Assembly: GCA_019748195.1 (NCBI GenBank)
Contig: JAIEPW010000065.1
Span: forward strand, 30,532-94,531
Length of the DNA stretch: 64,000 nt
From: Bryobacteraceae bacterium
Lineage (GTDB): Bacteria; Acidobacteriota; Terriglobia; Bryobacterales; Bryobacteraceae
Reading direction: 5' to 3'
Below, in pieces: positions 23,757-26,879 of this stretch (its first letter is position 1; each line of letters opens with the position of its first letter). Position numbers and translations under genes: made by a program. Under the pieces are notes generated by a model. That model was given only the letters and a program-made list of their open reading frames with translations. It searched no databases and was not told where the DNA came from.

Positions 23757-24743
23757 TCAGTCGCTGAGCGCGGCGATCAGCGCGCCCTTCGCGGTGGAGT
23801 GCAGCGGATTGGCCGCCATCCGGATCTCGGAAATCTGCACCGGGAACGTCTGCTCCCGCAGGATCGTTTCGAAGCGGTCCCGGAATCCCTTGGGCAGCGC
23901 CGTGCCGCCCGACAGCACCACCGGCACGGGCCGGTTCATCTTCGGCAGATTGCGCGAGTTGGCGAAGGCCTCACGCAGCCCTGTCACCAGCGTGCGGATC
24001 ATGTCGTCGTAATAGACGTTGATCACCTGGTGCACCTTGTCCGCGTAGTGTCCGTTGAAGTGGAAGCTCTGCTCCTTCTCGATGCGGATGCGGTTGGCGC
24101 GTTCGCCCGTGATCGAGGCCGCGCTGTGGTCGATGTAATCGCCGGCCTTGGGAACACTGAAGCTCATCACCGGGACCGAGAGGTAGGAGACGCAGACGTT
24201 GCATAGCCCGCCCCCGCAACTGATGCCGATGCCGGTGAAATTCGTCGACTCCAACTCGCCGTAAACCACCGCTTGGCCTTCGTTGATCGCCTTGGCCTGA
24301 AAGCCTAGATCGCCGAGCACCTGCTTGAGTGTCGCCTCATGATAGGTCAGGTTCTTTTCATGACCCAGCGGCGCCGCCGGCACCGTGAAGCATAGCTTGG
24401 CGCCTTTCCCCTTGCCAACCAGCGACTCGATCAGCCGCCCGATCTGGGTAAGGCTCTCGGGCTCCTTCGCATCCAGCACGCCGGAGGTCATCGTTCTGCG
24501 GATCTCCGCGTTCATCAGGTCCGCGAATTTCTCGCTCTCATTTCCCTGCACCACGATCTCGCCGTTTTCGACCGAGTGCGGGATGCCCTCGCGCTCCAGC
24601 ACGCCGGCCGTGATCTTCGAGTACGGGATGGTGACGAACGCATTCAGCTCGCTCGAGTACTTGTACTCCTCGCCGCTGCGCTCCGCTTTCACGATCCGGC
24701 TGGTTCCCACGTCGAGGCCCAAGGCAGTGTCATTCGTTCGCAT
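23757..24743 (-). CDS. Actin-like ATPase (MamK/FtsA/Hsp70-superfamily)
   Basis: ALGLDVGTSRIVKA (phosphate 1), GIGISCGGGLCNVCV (phosphate 2), VPVVLSGGTALPKGF (adenosine motif). Confidence 0.78.
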   Translation of the reverse strand: MRTNDTALGLDVGTSRIVKAERSGEEYKYSSELNAFVTIPYSKITAGVLEREGIPHSVENGEIVVQGNESEKFADLMNAEIRRTMTSGVLDAKEPESLTQIGRLIESLVGKGKGAKLCFTVPAAPLGHEKNLTYHEATLKQVLGDLGFQAKAINEGQAVVYGELESTNFTGIGISCGGGLCNVCVSYLSVPVMSFSVPKAGDYIDHSAASITGERANRIRIEKEQSFHFNGHYADKVHQVINVYYDDMIRTLVTGLREAFANSRNLPKMNRPVPVVLSGGTALPKGFRDRFETILREQTFPVQISEIRMAANPLHSTAKGALIAALSD

Positions 24744-25899
24744 GTGCTTTTTCTCCTGTAGCGGCCGGGATTGCCAGGGCCGCGGCTAGCTTCCGATAGC
24801 GCTGCTCGAGAGCAGATTTGTAGCGGACGACGGAGACGCCGGCCGCCGCAGCCTGTTGCCGGACCTGCTCTCGCGCCCGCAACAGTCCTTTCCAGGGCTC
24901 GCCGCTCATCACTTGCAGGAACACCTGGTCATACTCGAAGCCGAACACCGCGACGCTCGCCGGCGCGAGCGCGTAGTTGTCCGTAAGTCCAACTTCCAGA
25001 TACGGAAAACGGTTCGCCCAGTCGGTGTGATAGGCGATCTTCATGAACCCCGGGTTCACCGACACCTGCGCGTGGGTGACGCAATTACCCATTGGAATCT
25101 TGTACTTGGCACGCAGCATTTCGGTCAGAATGCGAAGCGAGTGGATCTGCCCCGAACTGGCGGTCTGCTCCTCGCCGGTTTGCGTCTCCACCGCGACGCC
25201 CAGAAAGCTCTCATTGAGACCTACATACGCGTTTTCCGGATCCGCCCACACCGACGGCCCGGCATGGTTGGCGACATCGCTTTCCGGCACCACGCGAAAT
25301 ACGCGCCCGAACCGGTCAATCAGGAAGTGATAGGCGTGAATGGACTTAACGTAGTCCAGCAGGCCCCGTCCCAAGCGCAGCATCTCCCGCGTCCGCCCCG
25401 GTTCGAAGGGAACAATCAGGCTTTCGGTGGTGTGAAACACGATGCCGCGCGGCTCGGACAGCCAGCGAACGGCCGGACGATCCAGATTGCCCGAATAGCC
25501 CGGAAACGGCTTACGGGGCCGGTGACCGGCGGTGTACTGGGTTTCGATCCGCAAACCGTTCGAATAGGTCTCATAAAGCGCCGCTTTTTCCACCAGCCAC
25601 ACGTTTGGGACTGCCGCCGTCCAGGGATGCGCGTCGCGCTGCGGCAATGGCAGGGGTCGATCGACAGTGACGGAGCCCGAGGTCGAGGGGCCGGGCACGA
25701 AAACTAAGCCTAGTAGAATCAACGGCGTATAGGCTCGCCAGTTGCGAGGCAGGCGGACCAGCAGGCGGCGTTTCGGCCGCGGCGCGTGATCCGTCGCGGC
25801 GCGCAGATAACGGAGCCGTTCCACCGGGTCGGAGATATGGCTCGCCCGCCACTCCACCAGCGGTTTGCGGTCTCCGGTAATCAGGCCTGACAGTCGCAT
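24730..25899 (-). CDS. Membrane-anchored N-acetylmuramoyl-L-alanine amidase (Amidase_2/PGRP-like)
   Basis: FHTTESL...HAYHFLIDRFGRVFRVV...ANHAG...GVAVETQTG...THAQVS; one TM segment (TPLILLGLVFVPG) after a ~60 aa basic N-terminal region. Confidence 0.75.
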   Translation of the reverse strand: MRLSGLITGDRKPLVEWRASHISDPVERLRYLRAATDHAPRPKRRLLVRLPRNWRAYTPLILLGLVFVPGPSTSGSVTVDRPLPLPQRDAHPWTAAVPNVWLVEKAALYETYSNGLRIETQYTAGHRPRKPFPGYSGNLDRPAVRWLSEPRGIVFHTTESLIVPFEPGRTREMLRLGRGLLDYVKSIHAYHFLIDRFGRVFRVVPESDVANHAGPSVWADPENAYVGLNESFLGVAVETQTGEEQTASSGQIHSLRILTEMLRAKYKIPMGNCVTHAQVSVNPGFMKIAYHTDWANRFPYLEVGLTDNYALAPASVAVFGFEYDQVFLQVMSGEPWKGLLRAREQVRQQAAAAGVSVVRYKSALEQRYRKLAAALAIPAATGEKAHANE

Positions 25900-26006
25900 C
25901 TATCCAAGGAAGTCTGTTGAGACAGACAAAGCTCTCTTGGAGAATCGGGCGGTATGCGGAAAAACCTTAGATCCACCTGAGAAGGCGGTCTATCGATTAG
26001 GGTTAA

Positions 26007-26879
26007 CTACGAAACATTGGCGGCTTCAAGCAGGTGATCCTGCCGAGGCGTCCACGCGCCGCTCTCTTCGGCCTGGTCCACGCCCTTGGCGGTGATCACA
26101 TACCGGCCATTATCGGCGCGCTGGATCCAACCCTGCTCCCGCAAATACCACAGGCTGAATTCGAGATGTTCCCTCGGAACCGAGAGCATGTCCTCGAGTT
26201 CATGCAGGTTCAGCGACGGGTTCTCATGCGCGGTCACGCGCTTGGTGTACAGCAGGGACAGAATGCCCTTACGCTTGCTTTTTTCGCCGTCCAAGCCTCG
26301 CGCGGCTTCCGGCTTGTCGAAGATCTTCCACTTGTGGCGCTGGTACGATCCCAGTTGGACATCATAGGCTGCACGCTGTTCGGGATCGCTCAGCACGTTG
26401 TAGGCTTCCAGAACCTGACGGAAAACGCTTTCGTCGCCGGTCTCCGGGTTATCCGGGTGATAGCGTTGCGCCAGGATGCGATAGACGCGGTGGATGGTGT
26501 CCGCCGACGCCTTTTCATGTACTTGCAGGACTTCGTAGTAGTCGTTCACCGAGGTAGCGGACGTTGCCGGCTTCGGCGCGGACGCTTCGGTGAAGGCAAA
26601 CCCGGCGCGATACACGCCGGTGCGCACCTCCGAGCAACTCACCACCCGTACCCGCTGGTCCCGGAACGTGCGCGTGACGCCGCTCTGCGTGAGGTCGCCG
26701 TGCAGGGTGAGGATCGCGCCGACGCCAAGCGGCTCGATCAGCTCCGCGCCGACTCCATCTGGGCCGCAGTCGACGACCTTCAACGTCAGGCGCCGCGAGC
26801 CCACCCCGGTCAGGTGGAGCAACTGCGTTTCCGTGATGCTCTTGCGCGGGTGCTTGCGGCGTTCCTTAGCGGGCCTCAT
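26007..26879 (-). CDS. PilZ domain - DnaJ J-domain fusion with C-terminal winged-helix-like region
   Basis: RRKHPRKS...VVDCGPDGVGAEL (PilZ RxxxR and DxGxxG) then YYEVLQVHEKASADTIHRVYRILAQRYHPDNPE...AYNVLSDPEQRAAYD (J domain with HPD). Confidence 0.85.
   Translation of the reverse strand: MRPAKERRKHPRKSITETQLLHLTGVGSRRLTLKVVDCGPDGVGAELIEPLGVGAILTLHGDLTQSGVTRTFRDQRVRVVSCSEVRTGVYRAGFAFTEASAPKPATSATSVNDYYEVLQVHEKASADTIHRVYRILAQRYHPDNPETGDESVFRQVLEAYNVLSDPEQRAAYDVQLGSYQRHKWKIFDKPEAARGLDGEKSKRKGILSLLYTKRVTAHENPSLNLHELEDMLSVPREHLEFSLWYLREQGWIQRADNGRYVITAKGVDQAEESGAWTPRQDHLLEAANVS

Follow-up and report, generated by a model that had tools for sequence, protein, structure and literature searches.

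Two neighboring genes within the stretch of DNA analyzed here (64,000 nucleotides, hereafter the window) form a tight unit that is inherited together almost without exception: one encodes a bitopic AmpD-like amidase and the other an actin-like ATPase of the Volactin family. The pair, carried by soil-dwelling Acidobacteria, looks like a new route by which an internal filament directs from across the membrane how the wall is cut. We consider it reasonably probable that the two genes are a FliA-controlled operon whose volactin-type actin filament recruits the bitopic wall amidase by means of the enzyme's cytoplasmic tail. A Shine-Dalgarno-like AGGAGA sits immediately 5' of the actin ATG, and the 14-nt overlap between the two reading frames (Table 1) makes translational coupling likely.

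Table 1. Features of the amidase-actin locus and its neighbor, numbered from the first nucleotide of the window
Feature	Position	Strand	Basis
PilZ-DnaJ-winged-helix protein, 290 aa; neighbor in the window, judged to lie outside the module	26007..26879	-	Beside the pair in 0/80 and 0/27 loci
Sigma-28 (FliA/WhiG)-like promoter element TAAGGTTT-N12-CCCGAT, ~44 nt 5' of the amidase start	25944..25969	-	k-mers, scans, presence of the sigma factor
N-acetylmuramoyl-L-alanine amidase of 389 aa, bitopic and AmpD-like; upstream member of the pair	24730..25899	-	Pfam Amidase_2, Foldseek, invariant ligands
Conserved tail motif WRASHISDPVERLRYLR, amidase codons 16-37; candidate actin-docking element	25789..25854	-	Sequence identity, motif counts, structure model
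Single transmembrane helix, amidase codons 53-69	25693..25743	-	Model helix 54-67; hydropathy of homologues
Overlap of amidase end and actin start, 14 nt	24730..24743	-	Sequence
Actin-like ATPase of 328 aa, of the Volactin family; downstream member of the pair	23757..24743	-	Pfam PF25216, structure model, Foldseek, identity to haloarchaeal proteins

The amidase gene adjoins the actin gene in all 27 primary loci of relatives, mostly lying upstream on the same strand and within tens of bases; some relatives' loci carry the two genes in divergent orientation, and the linkage has thus outlasted rearrangement. In a second set, drawn from named GTDB genomes that are nearly all Acidobacteria with labels mostly of Bryobacterales, Bryobacteraceae or Solibacteraceae, the amidase lies beside the actin in 78 of 80 loci, some genomes being common to the two sets. 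Adjacency extends to 10 of 15 volactin loci from more distant Acidobacteriota. The genes flanking the pair turn over between loci, and unbiased clustering of all ORFs from 125 loci yielded no third conserved neighbor; besides the actin and the amidase, it recovered nothing but shadow ORFs and dispersed genes. One subclade alone (L045, L050, L053, L057, L059, L061, L209, L211, L212 and L216) carries a coiled-coil gene beside the actin; it is duplicated in L061 and possibly encodes an adaptor.

The earlier note had described three minus-strand genes and the 14-nt overlap, all of which are present in the sequence, and had read the three genes as one module in which a PilZ-DnaJ co-chaperone, responsive to cyclic di-GMP, controls the actin and the amidase. 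The genes do adjoin on a single strand in the window, and both parts of the proposed controller are real at the family level. Its DnaJ domain is matched in Pfam with an E value of 1.1e-19; the PilZ part of the window copy receives no Pfam score by itself, yet family members reach 4.7e-8 at best, and the RxxxR and D-x-[SG]-x-x-G motifs of PilZ are visible in the alignment. The neighborhood argues otherwise. None of the window's PilZ-DnaJ, S9 peptidase and aminotransferase genes holds a conserved position near the pair in the 27 primary loci, and the PilZ-DnaJ gene is beside the pair in 0 of the 80 loci of the second set. Its homologues lie on contigs unrelated to the pair and occur also in genomes without the actin (e.g., G009, G011, G049 and G053), and the pair has a predicted promoter of its own inside the 107-nt gap between the PilZ-DnaJ and amidase genes. 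Gene-neighborhood comparison, which the earlier note had proposed as a check and whose failure in relatives it had named as a refutation, thus upholds the link between amidase and actin and not that with the PilZ-DnaJ gene; the module is two genes, not three. The larger arrangement is refuted as a conserved module and control by the PilZ-DnaJ protein is highly improbable, although a link specific to this species is possible. The PilZ-DnaJ-winged-helix family itself (26007-26879 in the window, L217-L231) occurs widely in these Acidobacteria without linkage to the actin, and is an unusual domain fusion. The earlier note was silent on its C-terminal winged-helix-like part, as it was on the volactin identity of the actin and on the sigma-28-like element.

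Presence and absence of the two genes agree with their linkage. Among 61 relatives, 30 genomes carry both genes, none the actin only, 2 the amidase only and 29 neither. The same tally for 170 genomes of the family with a completeness of at least 90%, in which 3 weak amidase matches (E values of 5e-6 to 6e-4) were disregarded, gave 116 with both, 52 with neither and one of each exception (Fisher p of 1.5e-41 for co-occurrence, not corrected for phylogeny). The actin-only exception (G479) is a decayed remnant that retains the last 89 residues, with stops in the longer match, and the amidase-only exception (G410) has its amidase cut by the end of a contig. The pair is also found in other Acidobacteriota families, in one of which (f83) the two genes are on different contigs. 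Two near-complete genomes of distant Acidobacteriota (G206 and G122) have a volactin and lack such an amidase, implying that the actin can work without it.

The actin matches the Volactin family of Pfam (PF25216) with an E value of 2.5e-78 and 264.2 bits against a cut-off of 35, its residues 7-325 aligning to positions 2-321 of a 321-position profile. Its match to MreB_Mbl reaches 13.2 bits against a curated cut-off of 27, which places it outside MreB. A sequence search for relatives of solved structure found none; the structure model (pLDDT 91, pTM 0.90) has MreB, Mbl and MamK as its nearest structures in Foldseek, and the phosphate and adenosine motifs are conserved, with D10, G12, T13, G176, G178, G278 and G279 invariant. 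The protein probably polymerizes. Among 61 genomes, 60 encode a true MreB, which in the source genome lies elsewhere than the pair. We therefore rejected the idea that the volactin-type actin replaces MreB, and regard it as an additional actin rather than the main shape actin.

The partner gene product matches Amidase_2 (E value of 1.8e-13, 51.4 bits against a cut-off of 26), and Foldseek relates its model to AmpD (E value of 2e-7), AmiD and AmpDh2/3. The earlier note had placed about 60 residues ahead of a single transmembrane helix; the helix is there, preceded by ~52 cytoplasmic residues and followed by an unconserved periplasmic linker and the AmpD-like domain. Conservation within the protein is highest in that domain, at a mean pairwise identity of 0.58. 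Across 27 homologues H156, H276 and D293 are invariant, and by analogy to AmpD we take these to be the zinc ligands. His291, at the position of the AmpD catalytic Lys, is likewise invariant in these homologues. The protein is predicted to cut the wall.

A second island of conservation lies on the cytoplasmic side. Residues 16-37 have a mean pairwise identity of 0.48, compared to 0.13-0.14 in the flanking segments, and follow the consensus E-[WR]-R-A-x2-I-x-D-P-V-x-R-L-R-[FY]-L-R. Of 105 amidase ORFs, 92 contain this pattern; the others are mostly variant or truncated. In the AlphaFold2 model the tail is a predicted helical hairpin (helices 12-20 and 25-36, pLDDT 85-89), and a profile search of the source genome with the tail returned the amidase itself and the motif in no other protein. 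One genome (G021) has the amidase and no detected actin; in that genome none of the frames encodes the tail motif, although the enzymatic part has stayed intact. This loss is what docking on the actin predicts, in a single case and a genome that is 87% complete. The coupling of an actin-like filament to a wall amidase across the membrane, which the earlier note had put forward, thus has strong support: the two genes are conserved together, the cytoplasmic tail is conserved, and the tail is lost where the actin is missing. We infer that the tail contacts the actin filament.

Two other readings of the same tail have to be weighed. The amidase could serve mainly to tether the actin filament to membrane and wall, in the manner of RodZ but with a wall-binding domain, catalysis being secondary or lost. 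In Haloferax the tips of volactin filaments attach to the membrane through an anchor that is unknown (PMC10869688), the tail would suit an anchor equally well, and the invariant His in place of the AmpD catalytic Lys fits such a role. A pure anchor would, however, not be expected to keep three invariant predicted zinc ligands within the protein's most conserved domain, and G021 retains the catalytic domain where the actin is missing; we regard this reading as unlikely. Alternatively, the two proteins might act in one pathway, for example wall remodeling in motile cells, and be co-inherited without ever touching, with the tail binding lipid or another cytoplasmic protein. Operon structure and co-inheritance alone are indeed no proof of contact, and the tail is basic and amphipathic, a composition usual for lipid binding. 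Yet its motif is more specific than charge would demand (an invariant Leu, D-P-V and R-L-R-[FY]-L-R), and the tail is missing where the actin is missing, and we find separate action rather unlikely in turn.

Upstream of the amidase, the k-mers TAAGGTTT and CCGCCGAT are enriched and combine into TAAGGTTT-N12-GCCGAT. The published sigma-28 consensus is TAAAGTTT-N11-GCCGATAA (PMC2859248), which the element approximates, given a spacing of 12 rather than 11. A score of at least 12 of 15 is reached by 46 of the 88 non-redundant upstream regions, compared to ~1.2 expected from shuffles, and a spacing of 12 dominates among the matches when 9-13 is allowed. A strict search of 3.1 Mb on both strands gave 23 distinct matches, every one of them before the amidase. 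With a looser score, the 17.7 kb of upstream sequence contain 38 sites and 2.95 Mb of other sequence 21, a density ~300 times higher upstream. The element was not convincing in other Acidobacteriota classes, a scan of the flagellar contig gave nothing useful, and no riboswitch or other Rfam RNA was found near the pair. A FliA/WhiG sigma factor scores above cut-off in 30 of 30 pair-bearing relatives, compared to 14 of 31 others, and one copy in the source genome lies near flhA, flhB, flgE and flgI. Transcription of the pair thus apparently depends on sigma-28, as judged from the sequence. A second FliA/WhiG-type sigma gene (L277:7731-8381, G000:C152) is located near genes that, by eye, resemble those for type IV pilus assembly.

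In the mechanism that we favor, one operon would supply both the volactin-type actin and the bitopic peptidoglycan amidase. The actin would polymerize in the cytoplasm, the helical hairpin at the cytoplasmic N terminus of the amidase would dock on the filament, and the docked filament would place, and perhaps activate, wall cutting in the periplasm. Transcription from a FliA-type sigma-28 promoter would tie the pair to the flagellated cell state, with daughter-cell separation, perhaps in the manner of the SigD-controlled autolysins of Bacillus subtilis, or local wall remodeling as its most likely role. Endolysin-like amidases are among the structural neighbors of the enzyme, and one could instead imagine a lysis or defense cassette in which a cue perceived by the actin frees the amidase to lyse the cell. 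We give this very little credence, since the pair has a core-genome-like distribution within the family and a FliA-type promoter, and its flanks turn over, with no conserved toxin-antitoxin or defense neighbors.

The closest design among known systems is that of the bactofilin BacA and the M23 endopeptidase LmdC in Hyphomonas neptunium and Rhodospirillum rubrum, in which the LmdC tail has been shown to bind the polymer (PMC10945521). Both systems consist of adjacent genes for a cytoskeletal polymer and a bitopic peptidoglycan hydrolase, in which a short, conserved N-terminal tail in the cytoplasm is joined by one transmembrane helix to the enzyme in the periplasm, and the pair displays both the gene adjacency and the conserved tail ahead of a single helix. 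The pair differs in having an actin-type ATPase rather than a bactofilin, an AmpD-like amidase rather than an M23 endopeptidase, a tail predicted to be a helical rather than a beta-hairpin, and a sigma-28-like promoter. Because its proteins are Volactin and Amidase_2, we rejected the possibility that it is the bactofilin-LmdC system itself. In Bacillus subtilis, MreBH interacts with LytE and Mbl supports FtsEX-CwlO (PMC3817527). As proposed for the pair, actin homologues there govern both where and whether wall hydrolases act; unlike the pair's actin, they are MreB paralogues, and the genes do not form a conserved pair. The hydrolases LytE and CwlO are secreted and are not known to have a cytoplasmic tail. 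Polymer, enzyme and tail all differ, and the pair therefore falls outside both the bactofilin-LmdC and the B. subtilis actin-hydrolase systems.

Individual components of the pair also have known counterparts. AmpD, AmiD and AmpDh2-3 share the fold and the predicted zinc-ligand pattern of the amidase, but they are cytoplasmic, lipoproteins or periplasmic, whereas the pair's enzyme is bitopic with a cytoplasmic tail, and the catalytic Lys position of AmpD is occupied by His in it. The B. subtilis autolysins lytC, lytD and lytF are SigD controlled (regulation table, PMC10653849). They resemble the pair as wall hydrolases under a FliA-type sigma factor, a dependence that in the pair rests on sequence, and differ from it in being other enzymes with no actin partner in the operon. 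The volactin of Haloferax volcanii belongs to the same Pfam family as the pair's actin, and two haloarchaeal volactin loci that we inspected hold no amidase partner; haloarchaea are without peptidoglycan. That volactin, HVO_2015, forms dynamic filaments and is needed for a timely rod-to-disk transition (PMC10869688).

It has long been asked how a filament inside the cell can tell enzymes on the far side of the membrane at which sites to cut the wall. Most actins make this connection indirectly, through many proteins; here the entire connection may consist of a single polypeptide, next to its actin, that carries a short docking tail. We can extend the argument, as a possibility that we hold more tentatively, to a volactin actin that is common to haloarchaea and Acidobacteria and has been wired by the flagellar sigma factor to an amidase via a docking tail, such that filaments would switch on wall cutting as cells enter the motile state. 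If true, this would add a third class of cytoskeleton-hydrolase module to those of MreB-type actins and bactofilins. The pair also extends volactin, known for its part in archaeal cell shape, to bacteria and gives it a partner gene, and suggests that flagellar regulation reaches the wall through an actin.

The Volactin family has so far been described only in haloarchaea, and a search confined to open-access journal papers turned up no description of a volactin from bacteria or of this actin-amidase pair. The actin of the window is 35% identical to haloarchaeal (plasmid-copy) proteins over 98%. In a tree, the pair-bearing actins form a group of their own, to which neither haloarchaeal nor phage members belong; its support is modest. 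Two uncultured huge phages of 595 and 485 kb (L237:4971-6014 and L238:4926-5987; LR756511.1 and LR745208.1) encode volactin-family actins that are 28-31% identical, and an amidase of the pair's type is not adjacent to them. Some Bryobacteraceae carry second, divergent actin copies that are ~38-42% identical (L060:7794-8813 and L061:2-799), with no amidase beside them. The best Pfam Volactin scores of the phylum belong to two further loci, L120 (G349) and L121 (G325), which by eye lie near DnaK-like, Hsp20-like and GvpO-like genes, perhaps a gas-vesicle context.
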